Notes under the pieces: model-generated
The model's input: the letters and a program-made list of their open reading frames with translations, nothing else
Told to the model about the DNA's origin: nothing
Database searches by the model: none
DNA from: Sphingomonas alpina
GTDB taxonomy: Bacteria > Pseudomonadota > Alphaproteobacteria > Sphingomonadales > Sphingomonadaceae
Length of the DNA: 64,000 nt
NCBI RefSeq assembly: GCF_014490665.1
Contig: NZ_CP061038.1
Coordinates: 4,238,501-4,302,500 of the forward strand
Direction: 5' to 3'
Made by a program: the position numbers and the translations under genes
Shown: piece by piece, positions 37,662 to 50,672 of the stretch
Numbering within the stretch: the first letter of the stretch is position 1
Layout of the letters: each line of letters opens with the position of its first letter

Positions 37662-38666
37662 GTGCGTGCGACCATCAAGGACGTATCCCGCGAAGCGGGG
37701 GTCTCGATCAAGACGGTATCGCGCGTCCTCAATAATGAGCGCTATGTCGGCGCGGCGACGCGCGCGCGCGTACAGGAAGCGGTCACGCTGCTCAATTTCC
37801 GCCCCAGCACCGCCGCGCGCTCGCTCGCCGGGCGCCGCAGCTTCCAGATCGCGCTGATCTGCGACAATCCCAGCCCCTATTATGTCTATGAAATGCAGTC
37901 GGGAATCCGTGACCGCTGCGAGGCGGACGGCGTGCGGATGATCGCCCAGCCCTATGACCGCAACTCCGTTACCTTGCTCGACGATGTCGAGAGCCTGGTC
38001 GATGCAACCAATGTGGATGGATTGATCCTGACGCCGCCGGTGACCGACTATCCGGCGGTGCTCGACCTGCTTGCGCGGCGCGGGGTGCGTTTCGTGCGCA
38101 TTTCACCCGGCGGCGATGTCGACCTGACCTCGTCGACCTTTATCGACAATGAGGGTGCGGCACGGATGATGACCGAGCATCTGATCGGGCTCGGCCATCG
38201 CCGCATCGGTTTCATCGCCGGCCATCCTAGCTATGCGACCAGCGCGCAGCGGCGGAACGGTTATCTTGAGGCCCTGCAGACCGCAGGTATCGCAGCCGAC
38301 CCGGCGCTGACGGTCGAGGGCAGCTACGACTTCGCCTCCGGCGCTGCTGCCGCCGAGATGCTGCTGTCGCTGGATGTGCCGCCAAGCGCGATCTTCGCGT
38401 CGAGCGACGATATGGCGGCCGGCGCGCTGACCGTCGCACACCGCCGTGGAATCAGCGTCCCCGGCCAGCTGTCGGTCGCCGGGTTCGACGATACCGCGCT
38501 GGCGGGTTTCGTCTGGCCGCCTTTGACCACGATCCGCCAGCCGACCCGGCAAATGGCCTATCAGGCGGCGGACCTGCTGCTTGCGGGCGAGGATGCGCCG
38601 GTCGAACGGCGCGAGATCGGGTTCGAGCTGGTGGTGCGCGATTCGACCGGGCCGGCCGAGAAATAG
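37662..38666 (+). CDS. LacI-family transcriptional regulator
   Basis: 334 residues from GTG 37662, with GGAG 7 bp upstream. The HTH reads TIKDVSREAGVSIKTVSRVLNN, with the hinge helix RPSTAARSLAGRRSF. A periplasmic-binding-like sugar domain follows (LICDNPSPYYVYEMQSGIRD ... GHRRIGFIAGHPSYATSAQRRNGY ... FASSDDMAAGALTVAHRRG). The ligand is probably a sugar or sugar derivative. It lies next to the minus-strand gene block 39018-45947, so it may control that locus; this is inferred from position. Confidence 0.93.
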   Translation: MRATIKDVSREAGVSIKTVSRVLNNERYVGAATRARVQEAVTLLNFRPSTAARSLAGRRSFQIALICDNPSPYYVYEMQSGIRDRCEADGVRMIAQPYDRNSVTLLDDVESLVDATNVDGLILTPPVTDYPAVLDLLARRGVRFVRISPGGDVDLTSSTFIDNEGAARMMTEHLIGLGHRRIGFIAGHPSYATSAQRRNGYLEALQTAGIAADPALTVEGSYDFASGAAAAEMLLSLDVPPSAIFASSDDMAAGALTVAHRRGISVPGQLSVAGFDDTALAGFVWPPLTTIRQPTRQMAYQAADLLLAGEDAPVERREIGFELVVRDSTGPAEK

Positions 38667-38698
38667 GCCCTTTCACGCCCGCTGATTGCCCGGGGTTC

Positions 38699-38868
38699 GC
38701 CCCTGTTATCCCCTGTTATCGGCATTGTATTTTCGCGCCCCTGTTATTGTTGGATCTATATCTGGATTACGCGTTTGTTTTCAGGAGCATGGCTGACCCT
38801 GCCCCTGGTATGGAAACAGGGGTGGAACAGGGGCAATAACAGGGGCCGTTTCGATCGAAACAGGGGCG
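38699..38868. repeat. Word array 2: CCCCTGTTAT forward copies, then AACAGGGGC reverse copies
   Basis: Forward CCCCTGTTAT is found at 38700, 38710 and 38738, with a one-mismatch copy at 38802. Reverse copies (AACAGGGG) are at 38815, 38826, 38838 and 38859. A perfect 14-bp palindrome GTTTCGATCGAAAC overlaps the last copy. It lies between the convergent LacI and YeiH-type genes; no gene is supported in 38667-39017. The layout matches array 1 but with a different word. Confidence 0.9.
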
Positions 38869-39017
38869 ATGATCGCGCGACGCTTCGTGGCCATTTGAAA
38901 GAGCAGGAAGAGAACGCCTCACCGGCGTCTCGTCCGACTCTCACCATGCGGCATCCCGCCACGTCATTGAATCGCCATCCGCCACCGGATCCGCTCAGTC
39001 CTCAATTCTCAAGCCTG

Positions 39018-40064
39018 TCACCCGACGAACATCAGCGCTGCACCCAGCGCAAGCAGGAATGCCACCAAAGTCGCCGCGAGGATCACGAACAACGGCTTCG
39101 GCCCAGCCTCAAGCAATTGCGACAGAGGCGAGCGGATCGCGGTCGCCGTCACCGCCGCGGCAAGCAGGCCGGCGGCGATCTGTTCCGCGCCTTTCGCCGT
39201 CACCGCCGGGATCACCCCGAATGAATTGATCCCGGCCAGCACGAAAAAGCCGACAACGAACCAGGGTATTCCCGGCCCCTTCGCCCGCGACGCATCGCCG
39301 CGCAGGAACAGGGCAACGATCGCCAGCACCGGCGCGAGCAGCGCGACGCGAGTCAGCTTCACGATCGCGGCGATATCGCCCGCATCCTTGGAATAGGAAT
39401 AGCCCGCACCCAGCGCCTGGGCGACGTCATGGATCGCCGCACCAAGCATGAAGCCGGCCTTGAGGTCGCTCATCGCCAGCGCGTGCGCGGCGATCGGGTA
39501 GAGCACCATCGCCAGCGCGCTGAGCGCCGAGATGCCGACCAGCACCATGGTCAGCTGCGCCTGGCTGGTGCGCTTCTCGCCCAGCGTGGTGGCCAAAGCC
39601 ATCGCCGCCGATGCACCGCAAATCGCCACCGCACCCCCGGCAAGCGTACCGAAAGCGGTGTCGAAGCCGAAGCGCCGCGCCGCGAGGATGCCGGCACCGA
39701 TGGTCAGCGCGACGATCGCCAGCACGCACAGCAGGGCGACCGGCCCGAGCGCGACGATCTGCCCGAAGGTGATGCGCACGCCGACCAGCACGATGCCCCA
39801 GCGCAGCAGCGAGCGCGAGGCGAAGGCGAGCCCGGGGGTGAGGCGCGTATCGGCGCTGAGGAAATTGAGCGCGAGCCCGATGAGCAGCGCCATCAGGGTC
39901 AGCGGCGCGCCATAATGATCCGACAGGAAGGCTGCCGCGAGCGTTCCCGCCGCAACGATCGCCAGGCCGGGCAGATAGCCCTGCCAACTCGACTTGGGCG
40001 ACGGCTCGATATCGCCATAGAGATCCGCCGCCATCGGCAGGGGTCTTGGTTGTCTCGTCGCCAT
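39018..40064 (-). CDS. YeiH-type putative sulfate exporter family transporter
   Basis: 348 residues from ATG 40064, with about ten membrane segments. Signatures: GLALNFLSADTRLTPGLAFASRSLLRWGIVLVGVRI, GGAVAICGASAAMA, and LGAAIHDVAQALGAGYSYS, as in the YeiH/UPF0324 family. YeiH relatives have been linked to sulfite tolerance, though the transported ion is not firmly established. Placed at the end of the gene block that should release sulfite, it may export sulfite or sulfate. It is 109 bp after the MFS gene. Confidence 0.9.
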   Translation of the reverse strand: MATRQPRPLPMAADLYGDIEPSPKSSWQGYLPGLAIVAAGTLAAAFLSDHYGAPLTLMALLIGLALNFLSADTRLTPGLAFASRSLLRWGIVLVGVRITFGQIVALGPVALLCVLAIVALTIGAGILAARRFGFDTAFGTLAGGAVAICGASAAMALATTLGEKRTSQAQLTMVLVGISALSALAMVLYPIAAHALAMSDLKAGFMLGAAIHDVAQALGAGYSYSKDAGDIAAIVKLTRVALLAPVLAIVALFLRGDASRAKGPGIPWFVVGFFVLAGINSFGVIPAVTAKGAEQIAAGLLAAAVTATAIRSPLSQLLEAGPKPLFVILAATLVAFLLALGAALMFVG

Positions 40065-40142
40065 GGTCGCCCCAATTTCGATCGGGCTGTTCCGCCCGCT
40101 TGTGATGAGGCTAGGCCAGAGCCGCCCCGAAATACAGCCGTC

Positions 40143-40174
40143 CCCGGAATATACCCATCCCGGAATATACCCTT
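40143..40174. repeat. 16-bp tandem repeat before the YeiH-type gene
   Basis: Two copies of CCCGGAATATACCCWT (16 bp each), one base different, directly after the MFS stop. Each copy contains GGAATATACC, a near-palindrome, so this may be a pair of operator sites for the downstream exporter gene. Confidence 0.5.
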
Positions 40175-41427
40175 CAGTGCGGCGCGACCGGCATTGCCGT
40201 CCCCATCCCATCGAGCGGCAGCCGTGGCAACAGGATCTGGATCGCGATCACCGCCAGCAGATAGGATCCGCCGGCGAACAGGAACAGCGGCAGATAACCC
40301 AGCCCGGCGGCGAGCGTCAGCCCGGCGACCTTGGCAATCACCATGCCGCCGATATTGCCGCTGAATGCGCCGAAGCTGGTTACCCGCCCGATCTTTTCCG
40401 GCCGCGAAACATCGGCGATCAGCGCGAACAGATTGACCGAAAAGGCCTGGTGCGCAGCCATCACCAGGCCGATCAGCGCGACCGCCAGAGCATAGCTGTG
40501 CACCGTGTCGGCGAACGGTAAAGGCAAGGCGAGCAAGGCGGCGGCGAGCAGCGAACCCTTGCGAACTTTCTCCACGCTATAGCCCTGACGGATGAGCCGC
40601 GACGCGACCGTCCCGGCGATCAATGATCCGATCGCGCTGCAGGTATAGGCGATCGCCAGCGGCGTGCCGAGCGCGATGCCGGTCAGGCCGAAGCTGCGAT
40701 GGAAGAAATCCGGCATCCAGAACAGCATCAGCCACCAGGTCGCATCCGACAGGAATTTGGCGATCGCGATCGCCCAGGTGCGCCGTTCGACAAAGATGCT
40801 TCGTCCGATCGTGCCGGCCGCGCTCGCTTCGCTGCGGGTCGATGCGCCGTCACCGGCGAAATGCACGCCCTTCACCGCGAGCAGCCAGGCGCCGGCCCAG
40901 ACCAGGCCGAGGCCGCCGCCGATCAGGAACGCCGCACGCCAGCCCCACAAAAGGGCGACTGTCGGAATGAGCAATGGCGTGGCGATTGCGCCCAGGCTGC
41001 CGACGGTATTGACCAACCCGTAACCGAACGAGCGCATCGTCGGCGGGAAGATCACGGCAATGGTCTTGATCGCGGCGGGCGTGCCCATCGCCTCGGTCGC
41101 GCCAAGCGCGATGCGGCAGAAGACGAAGCTGTTGAAGCCGCGCGCAAAGGCATGCGCCATCGCCGCGAGGCTCCACAGCGCGACGCCGATCGGATTGGCC
41201 CATTTCACCCCGAGCTTGTCGACCGCAAAGCCGGTGAACAGGAACGCCACCGCCGCCGATCCCTGGAACCAGGCGGCAAGCGTGCCGTAATCATTGTCGC
41301 TCCACCCCATATCCGCCGCGATATCGGGCTTGAGCACGGCGATGATCTGCCGGTCGACAAGGTTGAGCAGCGTCGCGGTGATCGCCAGCGCGAAGATGAG
41401 ATTCCGCCGCGCCAGGGACAGGGTCAT
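40174..41427 (-). CDS. MFS transporter, ExuT/ACS-like
   Basis: 417 residues with 12 hydrophobic segments. The opening LNLVDRQIIAVLKPDIAADM and the MGTPAAIKTIAVIFPPTMR region resemble anion:cation symporters such as ExuT, which carry hexuronates and other sugar acids. A sulfonated sugar would be a plausible anionic substrate. It follows the dioxygenase gene with a 240-bp gap that contains a REP doublet. Confidence 0.9.
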   Translation of the reverse strand: MTLSLARRNLIFALAITATLLNLVDRQIIAVLKPDIAADMGWSDNDYGTLAAWFQGSAAVAFLFTGFAVDKLGVKWANPIGVALWSLAAMAHAFARGFNSFVFCRIALGATEAMGTPAAIKTIAVIFPPTMRSFGYGLVNTVGSLGAIATPLLIPTVALLWGWRAAFLIGGGLGLVWAGAWLLAVKGVHFAGDGASTRSEASAAGTIGRSIFVERRTWAIAIAKFLSDATWWLMLFWMPDFFHRSFGLTGIALGTPLAIAYTCSAIGSLIAGTVASRLIRQGYSVEKVRKGSLLAAALLALPLPFADTVHSYALAVALIGLVMAAHQAFSVNLFALIADVSRPEKIGRVTSFGAFSGNIGGMVIAKVAGLTLAAGLGYLPLFLFAGGSYLLAVIAIQILLPRLPLDGMGTAMPVAPH

Positions 41428-41581
41428 CGCGGTTGGACCAGGAGATCGGAAGCGTTTGCAGCAAGGCGGTGCCAGCGCGTTTCGATCATCGGGCGCGGGA
41501 TGCCGGCGGCATCCTGCGGATCATGCCAATCTCTCTCGGCCGGATGATCGACATAAAACAAAAGCACGCGCCCCTTTCTTG

Positions 41582-41632
41582 TGCTCCCGCGAAGGCGGGA
41601 GCCCAGACTGGGTCCCCGCCTTCGCGGGGGCA
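41582..41632. repeat. REP doublet (CTCCCGCGAAGGCGGGAG type)
   Basis: Two GC-rich hairpins: CTCCCGC-gaag-GCGGGAG and CCCCGCC-TTCG-type CCCCGCCTTCGCGGGGG, about 15 bp apart. This is the well-known sphingomonad intergenic repeat. It may protect or end the upstream mRNA between the dioxygenase and MFS genes. 41428-41667 holds no gene. Confidence 0.8.
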
Positions 41633-41667
41633 AAAGTTTTTTGCCATAAGAGGACAGGTACCTCTTA

Positions 41668-42420
41668 CTAAGCAAAGGTCACCTGCTCACCATCCTGCAG
41701 CAGCGCGATGGCGTTGCGGCGCAATTGCTTCGTGCCGGGATTGAGCATCGCCTCGGGCGTATATTGCGCCAGGAACACGCGTCGTGCGCGATCGGTGCGA
41801 TTGGCGCCGGTCGCATGCAGCAACAGGCTGGAGAAAGCGACGATGTCGCCCGCTTTGGCCTCGACGATGAGCCCCTCCGTTTCGGCCGGTGCGCCGACCA
41901 GATCATTGCTGCCGGTCTGGCGCTCATGCGGAACGATACCGTTCCGGTGACTCCCCGGCATCAGCCGCACCGTGCCGTTCTCGATCGTGGCATCGTCGAG
42001 CGGGCACCAGCAGGTGACATAGGGGGCATGATCGGCCGGGCCGCCATTACCGACGACATAACCCGAATCCTGATGCCAGGAAAATGGCAGGCCGCCCTCC
42101 GGCCCCTTCACGACGAACTGGTCGAAGAAGAAATAGGCCGTGTCCCCGATCGTCGCGCGGCAGACTTCCGCCATCGTGTCGCTGAACAGCATGTGCCTGA
42201 TCTGCGGCGCGACGCGCTGGCATTCATTGGCGAAATAGCGCTTGCCGCGATGGCTGATGCCGATCGTGTCGACGCCTGCTGCGTCCATCCGCGCATCCTC
42301 GCGCGCGACGAATGCATCGCATTCGCCGCGCAACAGAGTCAGCGCGTCACCGGCCAGCGCGCCTTCGAACACGGCATAGCCCTGTTCGACGAACTGCCGC
42401 GCCTGCTGCTGATATTTCAT
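41668..42420 (-). CDS. PhyH-family Fe(II)/2-oxoglutarate dioxygenase
   Basis: 250 residues from ATG 42420 with GGAGG upstream. Iron ligands: H116 and D118 in FSWHQDSGY, and H202 in LLLHATGANRTD; Arg213 in RARRVFL may bind 2-oxoglutarate. The family hydroxylates varied small molecules. Placed 13 bp after the TonB receptor gene, it may process the imported compound. A 2-oxoglutarate oxygenase (of the TauD family, not PhyH) is known to break the C-S bond of sulfoquinovose in another pathway, so an auxiliary C-S cleavage role here is a guess. Confidence 0.92.
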   Translation of the reverse strand: MKYQQQARQFVEQGYAVFEGALAGDALTLLRGECDAFVAREDARMDAAGVDTIGISHRGKRYFANECQRVAPQIRHMLFSDTMAEVCRATIGDTAYFFFDQFVVKGPEGGLPFSWHQDSGYVVGNGGPADHAPYVTCWCPLDDATIENGTVRLMPGSHRNGIVPHERQTGSNDLVGAPAETEGLIVEAKAGDIVAFSSLLLHATGANRTDRARRVFLAQYTPEAMLNPGTKQLRRNAIALLQDGEQVTFA

Positions 42421-42433
42421 TCCAGGCCTCCGA

Positions 42434-44758
42434 TCAGTAATTGAACCGCACCGCGACCCCGAAATAGCGATCGACATCGCGCGGCAGGAGATAGCGATAG
42501 CTGCCGCCGGGACCGCCAGTGGTGATCAGCGACGCATAGCTCTTGTCGGTCAGGTTGCGGCCGATGAAGTTGACCCGCCACACGCCGTTCGGATCGACCA
42601 GCGCGATATTGGCGTCGACCAGGGCATAGCCGTCGATGGTGATCGCGCGGCGCACCGCAAGATCGCCCGGAGTTACGCCCGCCTGCAGCGACGACACCTG
42701 GTCGCTGGTCAGCGAGATGTTGCTGCCGATTTCGACATTGGCGAAACCGCCGGTCTCGATCTTCCAGGTCGCGCCGATATTGCCCTTCCAGGTCGGCGCG
42801 AGCGGCAGCTGTTCGCCACGCCGGTCGGTCGCGGTCGCAGGTGAGCCGGCCGGGATGTTGAACTTGTCGATCTGCGCGTCGGTATAGGCGATGCCGGCGT
42901 TGATGGTGAAGTTGCGTACCGGCCGGATCACCGATTCGATCTCCACACCCTTGGTCGACACCGAGCCCGCGTCGGTCAACTGAGTGACGACCGATCCGTT
43001 CAGATTGACGAAGCTGTTGGCCTGGAAATGGTCGTATTTGGCGTAGAAGACCGCGGTGTTGAGTGTGAAGCTGCCATCGGCTGTCTTGAACTTGGTGCCG
43101 AATTCATAAGCGTTCGATGTCTCCGCCGCGATCGGCGCGAGCTGGTTGTCGTTCTGGTTGAAGAAGACGTTGAACGCCGGGCCCTTATAACCCTGGCTGA
43201 ATGTCGCATACGCCATCAGCCCGTCGGTCACATCGGCCTGAACGCCGAGCTTGCCAGAGAAATCGCTCTGACTGGTCTTCAGATGATAATTTGCCGCCGC
43301 CCCGACCAAGCCGGGACCGGCGCCGGTCGCAGCCGCGCGGACATTGAAGGCACTGATATTGTCATGGGTGAAGCGCCCGCCCGCGATCAGCCGCAACCAG
43401 TCGGTCGCGCGGAAGGTGATATTGCCATACGCCGCGACATTCTCGATCGTCGACCCGAAATTGCCGACCGCGCTCGGAAAGGTCAGCGTCGAGGAGCCGA
43501 CCGCGCAAGGAAAGAGTCCTGAAACCGGCGGCAGGGTGGTCGCCGAGCAGACGATATCGTCACGCTCGAAGGTCCGCTCCTGCTTCGCTTTGTAGTAGAA
43601 TCCGCCCAGAACATATTCGACGGTCTGATTGCCGGGCGACGCGAGGCGGACTTCCTGAGTGAAGGTGGTCGATGGTTGCGGCCCGAAATCGTCGAGCTGG
43701 TTGCCGCCGGTGGCCGTGTAGACCCGATCGATAAAGTCGCCGTCTCGAATACCGAAATTCTTGTAATCGCGGTACGCGGTGATTGAGGTCAGCGTGCCAG
43801 CCGATCCCACATCGAGATCGGCCTGGAGCGAACCACCCCAGCTTGTCTCGCGCGTCTTAGTCAACGTGTTCTGACGGATTTCGCGCGTTTCGTCGCCGGC
43901 CAACTTGATGCCACTCAGCGATCCGGCCAGGCCGTTATTGACCGGCACCGTACCGATGACCTCGGCGCAGCAATCGGCATTGGTCCGGCGCCAGTCCCCG
44001 ATCAGCGTGAAGGTCAATGCGTCGGTCGCCTCGGCAACGATCATGCCGCGCACGCCGTAGCGCTCATAACCATTGACGGTGCGGTTCAGCGTGACGTTGC
44101 GCACCGTGCCGTCGAAATTGGCATAGGTTCCGGTGAACCGGCTGCTGATCCCGTTCCCGAGCGGAATGTCGATCGCCGCCTTGAGTTTGTATTCGCTGTC
44201 CGTGGTCGCCTGACCCTCGACATAGCCACCGAATTTATCGCCCGGCTTGCGCGTGACGATGTTGACCACGCCGGCCGATGAATTCTTGCCGAACAATGTG
44301 CCCTGCGGCCCGCGCAGCACTTCGATCCGCTCTACATCGTACAAATCGCCGAACGCTTCGCCGGAGCGCGCATAGGTGACGCCATCGACGACGAAGCCGA
44401 CACTCGGTTCGGCCGCGATCGAGAAGTTGATCGTGCCGACGCCGCGCAGGAACAGCGACGAATCGATCGTCGTCGCGCTTTCCTTGAAATTGAGGCTGGG
44501 GACGAGCTGTTGCAGCGACTGGACGTTGACGCCGCCGCGTGCCTCGAACTGCTCGCCACTGACCACGCTGATCGCGGCGGGGACCTTTTGCAGATTCTCC
44601 GAACGCTTCTGCGCGGTGACGATGATATCGCCCGGATCGGCGATGTCGGTCGCCACAGCCTCTTCCGGGGTGGCGGGTGCGGCATCCTGCGCGAACGCGG
44701 GCGTCGCGGCGATCAGCGCGAACAACGCCGCGCCGGACAGATGGAAAGCTCGTTTCAT
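42434..44758 (-). CDS. TonB-dependent receptor of the sulfonate locus
   Basis: 774 residues. The signal peptide ends AATPAFAQDA; the TonB-box region is DIIVTAQKRSENLQKVP. The plug has YDVERIEVLRGPQGTLFGKNS and VNIVTRKPGDKFGGY. The barrel ends in YFGVAVRFNY. It belongs to the large sphingomonad receptor class for organic substrates. As the second gene of the left arm, it would bring the sulfonated substrate or a glycoside across the outer membrane. Confidence 0.95.
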   Translation of the reverse strand: MKRAFHLSGAALFALIAATPAFAQDAAPATPEEAVATDIADPGDIIVTAQKRSENLQKVPAAISVVSGEQFEARGGVNVQSLQQLVPSLNFKESATTIDSSLFLRGVGTINFSIAAEPSVGFVVDGVTYARSGEAFGDLYDVERIEVLRGPQGTLFGKNSSAGVVNIVTRKPGDKFGGYVEGQATTDSEYKLKAAIDIPLGNGISSRFTGTYANFDGTVRNVTLNRTVNGYERYGVRGMIVAEATDALTFTLIGDWRRTNADCCAEVIGTVPVNNGLAGSLSGIKLAGDETREIRQNTLTKTRETSWGGSLQADLDVGSAGTLTSITAYRDYKNFGIRDGDFIDRVYTATGGNQLDDFGPQPSTTFTQEVRLASPGNQTVEYVLGGFYYKAKQERTFERDDIVCSATTLPPVSGLFPCAVGSSTLTFPSAVGNFGSTIENVAAYGNITFRATDWLRLIAGGRFTHDNISAFNVRAAATGAGPGLVGAAANYHLKTSQSDFSGKLGVQADVTDGLMAYATFSQGYKGPAFNVFFNQNDNQLAPIAAETSNAYEFGTKFKTADGSFTLNTAVFYAKYDHFQANSFVNLNGSVVTQLTDAGSVSTKGVEIESVIRPVRNFTINAGIAYTDAQIDKFNIPAGSPATATDRRGEQLPLAPTWKGNIGATWKIETGGFANVEIGSNISLTSDQVSSLQAGVTPGDLAVRRAITIDGYALVDANIALVDPNGVWRVNFIGRNLTDKSYASLITTGGPGGSYRYLLPRDVDRYFGVAVRFNY

Positions 44759-44793
44759 AAATCCTCCCTCAAATTCCCATTCAATTGATGGAT

Positions 44794-44821
44794 ATTATAT
44801 TTATTGGCCCCGATCTGACAG
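44794..44821 (-). promoter_or_regulatory. Promoter for the TonB receptor gene
   Basis: On the minus strand: CTGTCA, 16 bp, then a perfect TATAAT. It lies about 35 bp before the receptor ATG and after the Gfo/Idh/MocA stop, so the receptor may be transcribed separately. A near-palindrome around CAATTG (44777-44791) sits between promoter and start and could be an operator. Confidence 0.55.
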
Positions 44822-44858
44822 CGTAATCAGACTAGGCGGTCGTAAAGTTCGGCTTTGG

Positions 44859-45947
44859 TCAGACTCCCAATTCGGCCATTTCCACCACGCGGTGCTCGCG
44901 CGCGCTGATTTCCGCCGCCGCGCCGATCGCGACCGCCATCATCCCGTCATGCGCGGTGACTTCGACCGGGCCGGCGCCGCGCACCGCGGCGTTGAATTTC
45001 TGATGTTCGTAAAAGGTCGATCCGTGATGACTGCCGGCGTTCAACGCGGCCGCGTCGACATCGACCAGACGACGTTCGACCGCCTTGGGATTCATGAAAC
45101 CGACGCGCGGCGAATAGACGATCGCGCCTTCGGGAATCAGCACCTCGAGCCGCGCCTGGTCGCCAACCGCCGCGATCTCCTCCTGATTTTCCGCGCCATC
45201 GGCGAACATCGACAAATCGAGCATCGCACGCACGCCATTGTCGAAATCGACCGTCGTGTAACTGTTGTCGATGATGTCGGGACGCTCCCCGGCATAATCC
45301 TCATCGAGATGGTTCACGTCCATCGCACCCGAGCAATAGACGCGCACCGCTTCTGCGCCGGTGATCAACCGCATCAGATCGAAGAAATGGCAGCATTTCT
45401 CGACCATCGTGCCGCCAGTGTTGCGGCTGAAACGGTTCCAGTCGCCAACCTTGGGCAGGAAGGGAAAGCGATGCTCGCGGATCGACAGCATCTGCAAGCG
45501 GCCGATGCGCCCGGCCTTCACCTCGGCGATGAACTCTGCGGCCGGCGGCATGAAGCGATATTCCATCGCCGTCCAGAACACCTTGTCGCTCTGTGCCGCG
45601 CGATCGACGATCCAGCGCGCATCCTCGATTCGAGTCGCGACGGGCTTTTCGCAGAGGATATGCAGGCCGGCATCGAACAGCGGGACCAGCACATCGCGGT
45701 GCGTATGATTGGGGCTGGCGACGATCACCGCGTCGCACAGGCCGCTCGCCGCAAGCCCCGCCGCGTCATCGAATACCGCGACGTCATCGGCGCGCTCCTT
45801 GAGCGCGGTCTTCGCCCAGCCGAGCGAGCTTCCAGTCGGATCGGCCAGCGCCGTCACGACCGCGCCGGGCGTGATCGCGAGGTTGTTGATGTGCTCGACG
45901 CCCATCATACCCGCGCCCACCAGACCATAACGCACTTGCTCTACCAC
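44859..45947 (-). CDS. Gfo/Idh/MocA-family NAD(P)-dependent protein
   Basis: 362 residues from GTG 45947. The Rossmann start is VRYGLVGAGMMGVEHINNL. ILCEKPVATRIEDARW carries the CEKP motif. DWNRFSRNTGGTMVEKCCHFFDLMRLI holds the region where these enzymes bind substrate. Most members are sugar dehydrogenases; some act as NAD-dependent glycosidases, including sulfoquinovosidases. With no GH31 sulfoquinovosidase visible, this is the best candidate to release the sulfosugar from its glycoside. That is inferred from neighbours. It starts 15 bp from the divergent aldo-keto reductase gene. Confidence 0.92.
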   Translation of the reverse strand: MVEQVRYGLVGAGMMGVEHINNLAITPGAVVTALADPTGSSLGWAKTALKERADDVAVFDDAAGLAASGLCDAVIVASPNHTHRDVLVPLFDAGLHILCEKPVATRIEDARWIVDRAAQSDKVFWTAMEYRFMPPAAEFIAEVKAGRIGRLQMLSIREHRFPFLPKVGDWNRFSRNTGGTMVEKCCHFFDLMRLITGAEAVRVYCSGAMDVNHLDEDYAGERPDIIDNSYTTVDFDNGVRAMLDLSMFADGAENQEEIAAVGDQARLEVLIPEGAIVYSPRVGFMNPKAVERRLVDVDAAALNAGSHHGSTFYEHQKFNAAVRGAGPVEVTAHDGMMAVAIGAAAEISAREHRVVEMAELGV

Positions 45948-45962
45948 GAGGATCGATCCTAT

Positions 45963-46880
45963 ATGACAACGATGTCTGAAATCATGCTTACACCCGATTC
46001 CCGCCCGCTCGGCAAGAGCGGATTGATGGTCAGCCCGATTGCCTGGGGGATGTGGCGCTTCGGCCACTCCACCGCACAGGAGGGGCGCGCGCTGATCGAC
46101 GCGGCATTTTCGGCCGGGGTCACGCTGTTCGACACCGCCGATATCTATGGCTTCAACGGTGCCGGCGGATTCGGAGATGCCGAATCGCTGCTGGGACAGA
46201 TCTTCGCTGACTCGCCCGGCTTGCGCGAGCGCATGGTGCTGGCGACCAAGGGCGGCATCACCCCGCCGGTGCCGTATAATTCGAGCGCCGCCTACCTCGC
46301 CGAGGCGCTCGACGCGTCGCTGAAGCGGCTGCGGGTCGAACAGGTCGATCTTTACCAGATCCACCGCCCCGATACTCTCGCGCACCCGCAGGAAGTGGCG
46401 CGCGCGCTGGAGGACATGGTCACTTCGGGCAAGGTCCGCGCGGTCGGCGTGTCCAATTATACCGTCGCGCAGACCACGGCACTGGCGAGCTTGCTGACCA
46501 TCCCGCTGGCCAGCCATCAGCCGGAATTTTCACCGCTCGAACTGGAGCCGATCACCGGCGGCCTGCTCGATCTGGCGATGGAGCGCGACATGGCGATCCT
46601 CGCCTGGTCGCCGCTTGGCGGCGGCCGGATCGGCGATCCGCAGGACGAGCGCAGTCGCGCAGTCGCCGCCGCGCTCGATATCGTCGCGGCCGAGGCGGGG
46701 GTCGACCGTGCGGCCGCTGCCTATAGCTGGGTGATGACGCATCCGGCGCGCGCGATCCCGATCGTCGGCACGCAGAATGCCGATCGTATCGCGATGATCG
46801 GGGACGCTTTCAAGCCGCGCTGGACGCGCAAGGCCTGGTACGACGTGCTGATCGCGTCACGGGGAGAAAGACTGCCATGA
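45963..46880 (+). CDS. Aldo-keto reductase (SmoB-like candidate)
   Basis: 305 residues from ATG 45963 (ATG 45972 possible). The catalytic tetrad is visible: D57 and Y62 in LFDTADIYGF, K96 in LATKGG, H134 in QIHRPD. The C-terminal IPIVGTQNADRI binds NADPH. It belongs to the group that includes YdhF. In the sulfo-SMO pathway, SmoB reduces the 6-oxo-glucose made by the monooxygenase to glucose with NADPH. Its direct coupling (ATGA) to the monooxygenase supports that role here. Confidence 0.93.
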   Translation: MTTMSEIMLTPDSRPLGKSGLMVSPIAWGMWRFGHSTAQEGRALIDAAFSAGVTLFDTADIYGFNGAGGFGDAESLLGQIFADSPGLRERMVLATKGGITPPVPYNSSAAYLAEALDASLKRLRVEQVDLYQIHRPDTLAHPQEVARALEDMVTSGKVRAVGVSNYTVAQTTALASLLTIPLASHQPEFSPLELEPITGGLLDLAMERDMAILAWSPLGGGRIGDPQDERSRAVAAALDIVAAEAGVDRAAAAYSWVMTHPARAIPIVGTQNADRIAMIGDAFKPRWTRKAWYDVLIASRGERLP

Positions 46881-47953
46881 CGACCGATACGACGCGCAGG
46901 GGCGCGTGCGAGATCAGCTGGTTCTCGGCCCTGTGCGACGATGATTATGAATTTCTCGGCGTGCCCGATGCGAAGCTCAGATCGAGCTGGGAACATTGTC
47001 GTGACATCGTGGCGCAGGCCGAGACCGGCGGGTTCGACAATATCCTGCTGCCATCGGGCTATGCGCTCGGCATCGACACCACGGCCTTCGCCGCCGCGAT
47101 CGCCACCGCGACCAGTCGGATCAATTTGCTGATGGCGGTGCGTATCGGCGAGACCTGGCCGCCGCAGCTGGCGCGCCAGATCGCCACGATCGACCGCATG
47201 TCGGGCGGCAGGTTGAAGGTGAATATCATCTCCTCCGACATGCCCGGCGAGACAATGCCCTCGGCACCGCGCTATGCCCGCACGGTCGAGGCGATGCAGA
47301 TCCTGAAGACCCTGCTCAATGGCGACCCGCTCGACCATGACGGCGAATTCTGGAAACTGAAGCTCGCGCCGCCGAGCATCGGCACCGTATCGGGCAAGGC
47401 GCCCCTGCTCTATTTCGGCGGCCTGTCCGAGGATGCGCGCGAAGCAGCGGCGAAGGGCTGCGATGTATTCCTGATGTGGCCCGACAAGCAGGAAAATGTC
47501 GCCGCGATCATCGCCGACATGAAGGCGCGCGCGGCGAAACATGGCCGCACCCTGCGCTTCGGCTACCGCGCGCATGTCATCGTGCGCGAAACCGAGGCCG
47601 AGGCGCGCATTGCCGCCGAGCGGCTGTTGTCGAAACTCGATGCGGCGGAAGGGGCGGCGATCCGCGCCAAGTCGCTCGATTCGACTTCGACCGGTGTCGC
47701 CGCTCAGGCCGCTTTGCGCGAGAATGCCGCGGATGACGGCTATGCCGAGCCCAATTTGTGGACCGGCGTCGGCCGCGCCCGCTCCGGCTGCGGCGCCGCG
47801 ATCGTCGGCGATCCCGACCAGGTGCTGGCCAAGCTCAACGCCTATCGCGACATGGGCATTGAGGCATTCATCCTGTCGGGCTATCCCCATGCTGCCGAGG
47901 CGGACCTGTTCGCCCGGCATGTCCTGCCGCGGATCGATCACGCCCCTCTGTAG
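46877..47953 (+). CDS. SsuD-like LLM flavin-dependent sulfonate monooxygenase (SmoC-like candidate)
   Basis: 358 residues. Uses FMNH2 and O2 to oxidise the C-S carbon of a sulfonate, giving an aldehyde and sulfite. It aligns by eye with E. coli SsuD throughout: WPPQLARQIATIDRMSGGR, FGGLSEDAREAAAKGCDVFL, FGYRAHVIVRETE (R231, H233, matching SsuD R226 and H228), NLWTGVGRARSGCG (near SsuD R297) and SGYPHAAE (Y336, matching Y331). No SsuABC genes are present, and the neighbours point to a sugar sulfonate such as sulfoquinovose. Confidence 0.93.
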   Translation: MTTDTTRRGACEISWFSALCDDDYEFLGVPDAKLRSSWEHCRDIVAQAETGGFDNILLPSGYALGIDTTAFAAAIATATSRINLLMAVRIGETWPPQLARQIATIDRMSGGRLKVNIISSDMPGETMPSAPRYARTVEAMQILKTLLNGDPLDHDGEFWKLKLAPPSIGTVSGKAPLLYFGGLSEDAREAAAKGCDVFLMWPDKQENVAAIIADMKARAAKHGRTLRFGYRAHVIVRETEAEARIAAERLLSKLDAAEGAAIRAKSLDSTSTGVAAQAALRENAADDGYAEPNLWTGVGRARSGCGAAIVGDPDQVLAKLNAYRDMGIEAFILSGYPHAAEADLFARHVLPRIDHAPL

Positions 47954-47964
47954 AAGGTTTACCC

Positions 47965-48588
47965 ATGGCCGATGCCGCCGCCATTGACGTTCGGGCCGAT
48001 GCTCCTCTCGTCGTCGGAATCGGCGGGACGATCGGCGGTGTCTCCTCGACCGAACGCGCGCTGCGCATCGCGCTCGATGCGGCCGGACGCGAGGGAGGAT
48101 TCCGCACCCGCATGTTCGGCGGCGCCGACATGGCGCGGCTGCCGCTTTACGACCCGCGCGCCACGACCCGGACCCCGGACGAGATCGAGTTCGTCGAGAC
48201 GATCCGCCAGGCATCGGCATTGATCATCGCCAGCCCGGGCTATCACGGCAGCATTTCGGGCGTGGTCAAGAACGCGCTCGACTTGCTCGAGGAGACCGCG
48301 CGCGACGTGGACCGACCCTATCTCGCCGACATGCCGGTCGGGCTGATCGCCACCGCCTATGGCTGGCAAGCGACCGGCAGCACGATCGCGGCGCTGCGCT
48401 CGATCGTCCATGCGCTGCGCGGCTGGCCGACACCCTTTGCCGCCGCGATCAACAGCCAGCTGACCAAGTTCGACGAGGAAGGCGGCGCGAGCGAGCCCGC
48501 CGTGGTCGAGCAATTGTGCATGGTCGGCCGGCAGGTCGCTCGCTTCGCACCCCTGGCGAAGCAGATGTCGCTGCGGACCAATGGCTGA
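47965..48588 (+). CDS. NAD(P)H-dependent FMN reductase (SmoA/SsuE-like)
   Basis: 207 residues, flavodoxin-like fold: VVGIGGTIGGVSSTERALR (FMN phosphate loop) and IIASPGYHGSISGVVKNALDLL, the family signature. It supplies FMNH2 to the monooxygenase encoded 11 bp upstream. Two-component flavin systems of this kind are typical of sulfonate desulfonation. The 3' end overlaps the sulfite dehydrogenase gene by 8 bp. Confidence 0.93.
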   Translation: MADAAAIDVRADAPLVVGIGGTIGGVSSTERALRIALDAAGREGGFRTRMFGGADMARLPLYDPRATTRTPDEIEFVETIRQASALIIASPGYHGSISGVVKNALDLLEETARDVDRPYLADMPVGLIATAYGWQATGSTIAALRSIVHALRGWPTPFAAAINSQLTKFDEEGGASEPAVVEQLCMVGRQVARFAPLAKQMSLRTNG

Positions 48589-49807
48589 CCCCCTTGAAAG
48601 AATTTGGGATCGCCGCCGCGCGCTCGGATTGATCGGGCTCGGCGGCGCCGGCCTGGCGACCGCGCCGGTCTGGGCGCAAGCGCTCGCCGATCTCGGCATG
48701 CCCGGCGGCAATGGCGGCCGCCTGCTGACCACTGCCTTTCCCGGCAAGGGGAACATGATCCTGCAGCGCAGCCGCGCGCCCTTGCTCGAAACGCCGATGG
48801 ATGCGTTCGACGGCAATGTCTTCACACCCAATGACCGGTTCTTCGTGCGCTGGCATTATGACGATATTCCGACCTCGGTCGATGTCACGCGCTTTCGCCT
48901 GAAGATTGGCGGGGCAGTGCGCCAACCCATCGCCCTGTCGCTCACCGACCTGCTCAGCATGCCCCGGGTCGAGCTTGCCGCGATCAACCAATGTTCGGGC
49001 AATTCACGTGGCCATTTCATGCCCCGCGTGCCCGGTGCGCAGTGGAGCAATGGCGCGATCGGCAATGCCAGATGGACCGGTGTGCGATTGAAGGACGTGC
49101 TTGACCGCGCGGGTGTCGCACCGGGTGCGGTTGCAGTGCGGCTTGGCGGGCTCGACAGGCCGCCGCCCGGCGCGCCGGCCTTCGAGAAGTCGCTGGGGCT
49201 CGACCATGCACGCGATGGCGAGGTGATGATCGCCTTTCTGATGAACGGCGAACAATTGCCGATGCTCAATGGCTTCCCGCTGCGCCTCGTCGTACCCGGC
49301 TGGTATTCGACCTATTGGATCAAGGCGCTCGACCGGATCGAGGTGCTGGCCACGCCCGACACCGGGTATTGGATGGACAAGGCCTACCGCATTCCGACTG
49401 CACCGCGCGCCAATGTCGCGCCCGGCGCGAAGGATTTTCCGACCGTGCCGATCAACCGCATGGTCCCGCGCGCCTTCGTCACCAACATGGCGGATGGGGC
49501 GAGCGTGATGGCGCATTCGCCCTTCTTCGTACGCGGCCTGGCGATGGGCGGCGCCTCCGGTGTCGCACGAGTCGATCTGTCGATGGACGGCGGGGCGAGC
49601 TGGCATGCGGCGCCACTCGGCACCGACGAAGGCAAGTACAGTTTCCGGCTGTGGAACGCGACGATCCCGGCGCTGAAGCCCGGCGGCTATCGGCTGGCGG
49701 TGCGCTGCACCAACAGCAAGGGCGAGACGCAGGTCGCCGATCCGATCTGGAACCCGAGCGGCTTCATGCGCAGCGCGATCGAATCGATTGCGGTCAGGGT
49801 CGCCTGA
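48581..49807 (+). CDS. sorA: Sulfite dehydrogenase, molybdenum subunit (SorA-like)
   Basis: 408 residues. Twin-arginine-like signal (DRRRALGLIGLGGAGLATAP, ending near WAQA) suggests Tat export. The molybdopterin-binding domain has NQCSGNSRGHF with Cys138 as the Mo ligand, then GAQWSNGAIGNARWTGVRL. A C-terminal dimerisation domain (VARVDLSMDGGASWHAAPL) follows. It oxidises sulfite to sulfate in the periplasm. Its position after the monooxygenase fits removal of toxic sulfite. Confidence 0.92.
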   Translation: MADPLERIWDRRRALGLIGLGGAGLATAPVWAQALADLGMPGGNGGRLLTTAFPGKGNMILQRSRAPLLETPMDAFDGNVFTPNDRFFVRWHYDDIPTSVDVTRFRLKIGGAVRQPIALSLTDLLSMPRVELAAINQCSGNSRGHFMPRVPGAQWSNGAIGNARWTGVRLKDVLDRAGVAPGAVAVRLGGLDRPPPGAPAFEKSLGLDHARDGEVMIAFLMNGEQLPMLNGFPLRLVVPGWYSTYWIKALDRIEVLATPDTGYWMDKAYRIPTAPRANVAPGAKDFPTVPINRMVPRAFVTNMADGASVMAHSPFFVRGLAMGGASGVARVDLSMDGGASWHAAPLGTDEGKYSFRLWNATIPALKPGGYRLAVRCTNSKGETQVADPIWNPSGFMRSAIESIAVRVA

Positions 49808-50223
49808 TGCGATCGGTCGGCTTCAAGGTCGCAATGGCTTCACTGTTCGCCTTCGCAGTGCTCGCCGTGGCATGGAATTTCCTGATCGCCCGGGTCGATC
49901 CGACTGCTGCGCCGGCAGCGGTGGCCAAAGGGCCGTCGGTCTCGGCCGGCGGCGTCGCGCTCACCTCGGCGGCGATCGCCCTCCCCGATGCGACGGCAAC
50001 CCTGCCTGACGGTCCGGCGGGCGAACTGGTCACGCAGCATTGCACCGCGTGCCATTCGGTCGAGATGATCACCACCCAGCCGCATCTGGCGCCGGAGAAA
50101 TGGCAAGCGACGGTCGAGAAGATGCGCGCGGTCTACAAGGCGCCGATCGCGCCCGGCGACGATCCGGCACTGGTCGCGGCCCTGGTCTCCTTCCAGCAGC
50201 CCGCCAGAGTCGCCGACAAATGA
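49807..50223 (+). CDS. sorB: Cytochrome c subunit (SorB-like)
   Basis: 138 residues. One N-terminal membrane/signal segment (FKVAMASLFAFAVLAVAWNFL) and a single c-type heme site CTACH at residues 79-83. The start ATG shares one base with the sorA stop (TGATG), so they are tightly coupled. It should take electrons from SorA to the respiratory chain. No clear distal Met was identified by eye. Confidence 0.9.
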   Translation: MRSVGFKVAMASLFAFAVLAVAWNFLIARVDPTAAPAAVAKGPSVSAGGVALTSAAIALPDATATLPDGPAGELVTQHCTACHSVEMITTQPHLAPEKWQATVEKMRAVYKAPIAPGDDPALVAALVSFQQPARVADK

Positions 50224-50672
50224 CGATTCGCTGGCCGGACGGTTTCGCACCGGCCGACAGCCCGGTCCATATCGTCAACCGCATCGAGACCCCGACTGAC
50301 CCGCAGATCGTCTGGCGGCGCCTGATCCGCGCCGCCGACTGGCCGCTCATCTATGCCAATGCCAGCAAGGTGAAGATCGAGGGCGGCGGCGCCGACCTGT
50401 TCGCGGGCGCGCATTTTACCTGGAACACGTTCGGCGTCGCGCTCAAGACGCGGGTGACCGAGTTCGAACCCGAGACACGCATCGCCTGGATCGCCGAATC
50501 GACCGGCGTCCGCGCCTATCATGCCTGGCTGATCACCCCGTCCGACGGCGGCGGCTGCACCGTCCTGACCGAGGAAACCCAGCACGGCCTCATCGCCCGC
50601 GCCGGCCGCCTGCTCTTCCCCCGCCGAATGGAACATTGGCACCAGAAATGGCTCGAAGCGCTCAGCGCTTGA
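50220..50672 (+). CDS. SRPBCC-family protein of unknown role
   Basis: 150 residues, START/SRPBCC fold: VHIVNRIETPTDPQIVWRRL, WPLIYANASKVKIEGGGADL, and TVLTEETQHGLIARAGRLLF. The family binds hydrophobic ligands. The start overlaps the cytochrome stop as ATGA, so it belongs to the right arm. Its task is unknown; handling of a lipophilic glycolipid or its product is only a guess. The 3' end overlaps the convergent YbjN-like gene by 11 bp. Confidence 0.88.
   Translation: MTIRWPDGFAPADSPVHIVNRIETPTDPQIVWRRLIRAADWPLIYANASKVKIEGGGADLFAGAHFTWNTFGVALKTRVTEFEPETRIAWIAESTGVRAYHAWLITPSDGGGCTVLTEETQHGLIARAGRLLFPRRMEHWHQKWLEALSA

Follow-up and report, generated by a model that had tools for sequence, protein, structure and literature searches.

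A predicted sulfoquinovose degradation locus in Sphingomonas alpina, with a GH188 sulfoquinovosidase and an associated PhyH-family dioxygenase

Which sulfonated substrate is served by a cluster of 12 genes in Sphingomonas alpina, and by which route? The cluster lies in a 64,000-nucleotide stretch of the 5.2-Mb single-contig genome (contig NZ_CP061038.1, positions 4,238,501 to 4,302,500 of the forward strand; "the window," in whose numbering gene positions are given below) and extends from a LacI-family regulator (37662) to an SRPBCC protein (50672), with two arms diverging between a Gfo/Idh/MocA gene and an aldo-keto reductase (AKR) gene. A sequence-only reading had proposed a sulfosugar locus with the enzyme set of the sulfo-SMO route (AKR, monooxygenase and FMN reductase), and its gene list was confirmed, all named genes being present, open and in the order described. 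We find that the locus very probably encodes the sulfo-SMO pathway in a form with a GH188 sulfoquinovosidase, acting on sulfoquinovose (SQ) glycosides, where reactions, direction of transport and substrate are transferred from characterised relatives. At the genomic level the core pathway is assigned with high confidence, on directly observed gene content, family placement, retained GH188 active-site residues and conserved gene association. The same pathway is called sulfo-ASMO in Agrobacterium and Novosphingobium aromaticivorans (PMC12890257; this and the other papers cited by PMC number are represented here by extracts).

The monooxygenase (46877..47953, plus strand), a predicted FMNH2-dependent SQ monooxygenase of the LLM family, is closest among solved chains to 7oh2 (392 bits) and 7olf (386 bits), as compared to 207 bits for SsuD (1m41). 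The PDB names of 7oh2 and 7olf are alkanesulfonate monooxygenase and methanesulfonate sulfonatase, and we take both to be SmoC enzymes. In a tree of 33 rows (the window, 4 solved chains, 21 chosen loci and seven of the genome's nine own paralogues), which was calculated by a quick method and contains several long branches among the own paralogues, the protein falls into a clade of 21 rows together with 7oh2 and 7olf (SH-aLRT 99); SsuD, the chain 7jv3 and the genome's own SsuD-like paralogue (L001) are all placed outside this clade. Clustering with SsuD had been named by the sequence-only reading as the outcome that would speak against it, and the tree returned the opposite placement. Membership in the SmoC group is supported, and SQ would be the substrate, as judged from the relatives.

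The release of SQ from its glycosides would fall to the product of the Gfo/Idh/MocA gene (44859..45947, minus strand; GTG codons at 45947 and 45935 are both possible starts). It matched the solved chains 8qc2, 8qc3 and 8zn9 with 366, 357 and 312 bits, followed by the next chain at only 82 bits. The first two are named FlSqgA and ArSqgA in the extract of PMC10755693, which gives K107, Y136, R166, L170, K172, E189, H193 and H321 as residues for SQ binding and catalysis. All eight (ArSqgA numbering) are kept in the S. alpina protein, which is 53% identical to ArSqgA (184/350 aligned residues). Among 43 records, a set to which the window belongs and in which one genome is represented twice (L043/L096), the sulfonate-binding R166, L170 and K172 are retained in the window and in 42/42 alignable records, and K107, Y136, E189, H193 and H321 in the window and in 42/42 or 43/43, with no substitutes at any of these positions. 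The E163 mentioned in the extract of the same paper (PMC10755693) corresponds to a valine in ArSqgA by the present numbering, while a glutamate is found at position 164 and is kept. A YihQ-type query against the whole genome gave only a partial GH31 match of 29% and no close GH31 sulfoquinovosidase. The earlier remark that the canonical ABC transporter and GH31 enzyme are not seen holds for the 12 products, to which the check for ABC transporters was confined, but a sulfoquinovosidase is present in the form of GH188, and the idea of a locus without one was rejected on the solved relatives and the eight kept residues. The assignment of this protein as a predicted NAD-dependent sulfoquinovosidase of GH188 (SqgA type) is supported.

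The two reductases of the sulfo-SMO set flank the monooxygenase gene. The closest solved relatives of the AKR (45963..46880, plus strand) are 7bbz and 7bby with 169 bits, the next best reaching 130 bits. Both are named aryl-alcohol dehydrogenase and are presumably SmoB, from which we infer that the AKR is of the SmoB type and would convert 6-dehydroglucose to glucose. The flavin reductase is represented by a putative NAD(P)H:FMN reductase (47965..48588, plus strand) with a SmoA-type role, a PF03358 member whose matches to the MsuE- and SsuE-like NCBIfam models stay below cut-off. The proposed enzyme set is supported in all three members, by the SmoC clade, by SmoB as nearest solved relative and by PF03358.

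The conservation of this gene set was followed in 296 genomes of the order, of which 56 had a SmoC match at 1e-80; stretches of 12.6–19.9 kb around SmoC were fetched from the 55 others. In these 55 loci tblastn matches near SmoC were obtained for SmoB (55), the TonB receptor (51), LacI (43), MFS (41), YeiH (31), FMN reductase (20), GH188 (17), SorA (6), SorB (5) and PhyH (2), with the counts for TonB, MFS and LacI, all of them large families, being softer than those for the enzymes. SmoB is located about 1 kb from SmoC on the same strand in all 55 loci (it precedes SmoC in 53 and follows it in L092 and L093), a constancy which argues that the pairing is more than chance. One type of sulfoquinovosidase, and never both or neither, is found near SmoC in 55/55 loci, namely GH188 in 17 and GH31 in 38; the GH31 type was anchored on YihQ structures (its reference scores 844 bits to YihQ), and in L047 the match, at first cut by the locus end, proved to be whole. 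Because each SmoC locus carries one such enzyme, SQ glycosides are strongly supported as the substrate. With a TonB-receptor match in 51 of the 55 loci, receptor-fed uptake looks usual in the order: the "receptor-fed variant" of the sequence-only reading was right about the receptor in this locus but not about its being special, and receptor feeding as a peculiarity of this genome was rejected. In a gammaproteobacterial sample GH188 was detected in 5/274 genomes, beside SmoC and SmoB in three (L179–L181), beside a TauD gene in one (L178) and in a different setting in another (L182). The GH188-AKR-TauD trio of this gammaproteobacterial genome (L178:9553-12707) looks like a sulfo-SDO locus. A sulfatase-family gene also recurs near SmoC (L105–L108, L110, L122 and L048; PF00884/SGSH_C in L108, tblastn matches in the rest), and in L105–L108 and L110 it has the MFS on one side and the TonB receptor on the other.

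In the proposed pathway, SQ glycosides, e.g., sulfoquinovosyl glycerol, would cross the outer membrane through the TonB-dependent receptor (42434..44758, minus strand; Plug and barrel domains) and the inner membrane through the MFS transporter (40174..41427, minus strand; MFS_1, with the D-galactonate transporter as best NCBIfam model at 124 bits, cut-off 395). The GH188 enzyme would free SQ with the help of bound NAD+, the FMN reductase and SmoC would oxidise C6 to yield sulfite and 6-dehydroglucose, and SmoB would reduce the latter to glucose. Sulfite could then be exported by a YeiH-type putative sulfite/sulfate exporter (39018..40064, minus strand; PF03601, TIGR00698 with 121 bits, cut-off 232.6) and/or be oxidised to sulfate by SorAB. 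The predicted molybdenum subunit of this sulfite dehydrogenase (48581..49807, plus strand) has SorA as its best NCBIfam family (504 bits, below the cut-off of 600) and a leader that, judged by eye, is twin-arginine-like; it is directly followed by the SorB-like c-type cytochrome (49807..50223, plus strand), which has no Pfam match and shows a CTACH haem motif (CxxCH) in its translation. The whole gene set would be controlled by the LacI-family regulator (37662..38666, plus strand; Pfam LacI and Peripla_BP_3). The plus arm ends with a small SRPBCC/polyketide-cyclase-like protein (50220..50672, plus strand; PF10604, 1.3e-7). With intergenic spacings of -4, +11, -8 and -1 bases from the AKR to SorB the genes of this arm are tightly coupled, as had been stated before. 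Between the divergent GH188 and SmoB genes (45935-45963) the probable start codons are only some 15–30 bases apart, a distance that offers little space for promoters, and no LacI operator was found when sought at this divergent start region. A perfect 14-base palindrome, GTTTCGATCGAAAC, is located at 38848-38861, in the gap where the LacI and YeiH genes converge.

Several scores and counts weigh against the sulfo-SMO assignment. For the monooxygenase, the top-scoring NCBIfam model is that of alkanesulfonate monooxygenase (258 bits, below its cut-off of 518), the similarity of the AKR to solved SmoB is moderate (169 bits), the FMN reductase, YeiH and SorA all score below NCBIfam cut-offs, and SorA is found near SmoC in only 6/55 loci. 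The first of these points would suit an ordinary SsuD-type locus for the scavenging of sulfur from alkanesulfonates, with unrelated sugar genes as its neighbours; but the tree groups the monooxygenase with SmoC and away from SsuD, its GH188 and SmoB partners are conserved, and a separate SsuD-like paralogue (L001) exists elsewhere in the genome. We consider this reading highly improbable and rejected it on the tree placement. It could also be asked whether the substrate is another 6-sulfohexose or an unusual SQ glycoside rather than SQ from sulfolipid, given that the TonB receptor and the MFS protein share only 34–51% and 32–59% identity with those near SmoC elsewhere in the order; the exception is L043, a locus with the same PhyH arrangement, in which they are 75% and 73% identical. 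However, every SQ-contacting residue checked in GH188 is kept, and receptors and MFS proteins in general diverge fast, which makes a different substrate unlikely.

The predicted sulfo-SMO locus of S. alpina thus invites comparison with several known systems. It resembles the sulfo-SMO clusters of Agrobacterium tumefaciens (SmoA/B/C) and N. aromaticivorans (SquD/SsuE/SquF), the latter discovered via YihQ (extract of PMC9594981), in combining a SmoC-type monooxygenase, a SmoB-type AKR and a flavin reductase in one operon. It differs from them by a GH188 instead of a GH31 sulfoquinovosidase, by the addition of putative SorAB and PhyH, and by a TonB receptor and MFS protein in place of the ABC importer that the sequence-only reading had named as canonical for SQ. 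GH188 is described in sulfo-SMO and sulfo-SDO clusters in the extract of PMC10755693; FlSqgA and ArSqgA stem from Flavobacterium and Arthrobacter (PMC10755693), whereas the present enzyme is encoded in a sphingomonad sulfo-SMO locus. A GH188 gene of Sphingomonas sp. Leaf17 appears within a published SQ cluster in the legend of Fig. 5c of that paper (PMC10755693), and this cluster is probably of a similar type. The occurrence of a predicted Fe/2-oxoglutarate dioxygenase among SQ genes is reminiscent of sulfo-SDO (SqoD), but here the enzyme acting on the C-S bond would be SmoC, and PhyH belongs to another Pfam family than the TauD of L178, with which it was compared. As in known SorAB systems a predicted molybdenum subunit is followed by a putative c-type cytochrome; unlike those, the present pair is embedded in an SQ operon, and its SorA reaches 504 bits against the NCBIfam cut-off of 600. 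Sphingomonadaceae were labelled and sulfo-SMO was predicted in Novosphingobium according to the extract of PMC13372026, where this genus is also counted among the main freshwater SQ degraders. Neither TonB-fed uptake nor a PhyH protein in connection with sulfoquinovose was found in the open-access literature searched. The core pathway is already known, and the novelty rests on the PhyH association.

What, then, could be the role of PhyH (41668..42420, minus strand; PF05721, 1e-27)? An alignment of 32 sequences, selected from the window's own and those of 46 loci, shows no variation at its residues H116, D118, H202 and R213/R214. We take the first three to form the HxD...H iron site and R213/R214 to supply the 2-oxoglutarate arginine. 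Its AlphaFold model has a pLDDT of 94.6, and the best 50 of 1609 matches in a fold search were general PhyH-type relatives of 16–23% identity. By motif and model the protein is predicted to be an intact Fe(II)/2-oxoglutarate dioxygenase. The nearest named PhyH locus, that of Sphingomonas sp. ERG5, encodes a 98% identical protein within the same 12 genes in identical order.

A scan of named genomes yielded 46 PhyH loci, 36 of which, at ≥59% identity, are referred to as close. SmoC, GH188 or a GH31 sulfoquinovosidase is encoded on the fetched stretch of 29/36 close loci, and of the seven without any of them (L095, L102, L112, L113, L118, L119 and L127) six belong to genomes with a close SmoC (72–87%) elsewhere, while in that of L118 the match does not exceed 34%. 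PhyH was present in 4/296 genomes of the order sample, all SmoC-positive (own genome excluded, 3/3 versus 55/295, p 0.006), and in one of them, L047, it is situated about 18 kb from SmoC, beyond the fetched stretch. The association of PhyH with SQ genes is supported, and PhyH probably plays an accessory part in the pathway for this substrate, as far as its genomic setting indicates. At the same time it was absent at 1e-60 from 52/55 other SmoC-positive genomes of the order, from which it follows that the SQ pathway does not need it. None of the stretches fetched for the five gammaproteobacterial GH188 loci contained a PhyH of this type, L181 showing a weak match to a distant PhyH-family member. 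In a sample of the class, PhyH was found in 3/385 genomes (own; G478, 70%; G549, 47%) and SmoC in 21/385; G478 and G549 lack SmoC at 1e-80, which weakens the link of PhyH to SmoC alone. In G478, PhyH is encoded about 11 kb from a GH31 sulfoquinovosidase that has MFS, CoA-ligase and TonB-receptor genes beside it. A GbcA-like Rieske gene lies on one side of this PhyH, and GlpD-, GlcD- and glycerol-kinase-like genes between it and the sulfoquinovosidase (L170/L172). The PhyH gene of G549 adjoins ABC-transporter-like genes, as seen from open reading frames (ORFs), on a 7.3-kb contig without any SQ-gene match. Likewise, the distant homologues L131–L136 (41–47%) gave no SQ-gene match by tblastn, with a general Gfo/Idh/MocA match of 30% in L135.

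The neighbours of PhyH are partly conserved, although a clustering of all neighbour genes was blurred by overlapping high-GC ORFs. An MFS gene directly follows PhyH on the same strand in 25/36 close loci. Of 39 distinct close loci (the 36 from named genomes plus G179, G268 and G478), 11 have a LysR gene of one family in the vicinity of PhyH, adjacent in nine and within about 3.3 kb in two (L064, L111, L112, L115, L118–L120, L125, L126, L164/L165 and L170); this gene is absent from all 53 SmoC loci whose fetched stretch lacks PhyH. This suggests that PhyH is under its own regulation outside of LacI-type loci.

PhyH also occurs in a second genomic context. In L117 and L128, whose genomes have no SmoC match, it is accompanied by a GH31 sulfoquinovosidase, SDR, SMP30 and further genes. 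Family searches on the contig of L117 (L156) returned an IlvD-type dehydratase, a GD_AH protein and sulfolactate-dehydrogenase-like and SerA-like genes, which presumably resemble SuyB/ComC/SlcC, and a similar set was recognised from ORFs and tblastn matches on that of L128 (L154). We read these sets as sulfo-Entner-Doudoroff/sulfolactate-like, against which it must be noted that no aldolase was identified in the L117/L128 set, that the dehydratase passes the cut-off for L-arabinonate dehydratase (900 vs. 882) and that the sulfolactate model remains below its cut-off (187 vs. 500). If this reading is right, PhyH is independent of the route of C-S cleavage. L156 also has a 41% YeiH match, possibly a case of full SQ mineralisation in one locus.

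These contexts bear on what PhyH might do. SQ-cleaving Fe/2-oxoglutarate enzymes have been described (SqoD; extract of PMC12890257), and a second C-S-cleaving dioxygenase beside SmoC would agree with the tie of PhyH to SQ loci and with L111, L117 and L128, where PhyH and a GH31 sulfoquinovosidase occur in genomes lacking a close SmoC (two have no match at all, and that of L111 has a 40% match that falls on the SsuD side). Yet the Entner-Doudoroff/sulfolactate-type set would make C-S cleavage by PhyH unnecessary in L117 and L128, and in the only SDO-like locus found, L178, the dioxygenase is of the TauD family and bears no meaningful resemblance to PhyH by BLASTP, so we regard this function as improbable. 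A disposal of 6-dehydroglucose, e.g., by oxidation of the C6 aldehyde, through which PhyH could replace SmoB, is suggested by the absence of SmoB beside SmoC in 7/25 loci with PhyH and SmoC (L105, L106, L108, L121, L122, L125 and L126, all with GH188) as opposed to 0/53 whose fetched stretch lacks PhyH, L047 being one of these 53 (Fisher p 0.0002). Five of the seven genomes have no SmoB match at 1e-30, in a search that recovered SmoB at 59–65% from all three genomes used as controls, which carry it in their locus. The other two, however, carry an AKR of 39–40% on another contig and may have SmoB, since this is about as close to the query as is solved SmoB; counting them as SmoB-bearing gives p = 0.0025, and both p values overstate the effect because the two sets come from differing samplings and because the loci, which by name fall into two or three lineages, are related. 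SmoB is moreover kept in the window and in 18/25 PhyH and SmoC loci, PhyH is also present in the Entner-Doudoroff-like loci, where 6-dehydroglucose is not expected, and a gene for glucuronate isomerase (UxaC) was nearby in one locus only. A replacement of SmoB therefore appears unlikely to us.

A third view, in which PhyH acts on the non-sugar part or on the intact glycoside (the side of the glycerol or lipid), in advance of both SQ routes, would explain its presence on both SMO and Entner-Doudoroff-like routes, and is in line with GlpD-/GlpK-like neighbours in L102, L111, L117, L164 and L170/L172, a fatty-acid-CoA ligase in L064, L164 and L172, and a type-B carboxylesterase between SmoB and SmoC in L130 (17541-19190). 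(The esterase might possibly deacylate sulfolipid.) But GlpD/GlpK-like matches are also found in 23/53 SmoC loci whose fetched stretch has no PhyH and there is none in the window, several of the matches to kinases and dehydrogenases fall short of NCBIfam cut-offs, and the argument is one of association only; we hold this role to be less likely than not. Taking these lines together, we tentatively suggest, at somewhat less than even odds, that PhyH with its partner MFS, and often its own LysR, could represent an undescribed conserved step of SQ-glycoside use on both SMO and Entner-Doudoroff-like routes, directed at the aglycone or intact glycoside, or at 6-dehydroglucose where SmoB has been lost.

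For the sphingomonads, the locus suggests how such bacteria could feed the SQ pathway via an outer-membrane receptor, and the mutual exclusion of GH188 and GH31 (17 and 38 of the 55 loci) makes this pathway easily recognised in genomes. The production of SQ is put at 10 billion tons per year in the extract of PMC10755693. The association of PhyH with SQ genes provides a concrete and testable candidate for an enzyme step that may so far have gone unrecognised in this large sulfur flux.

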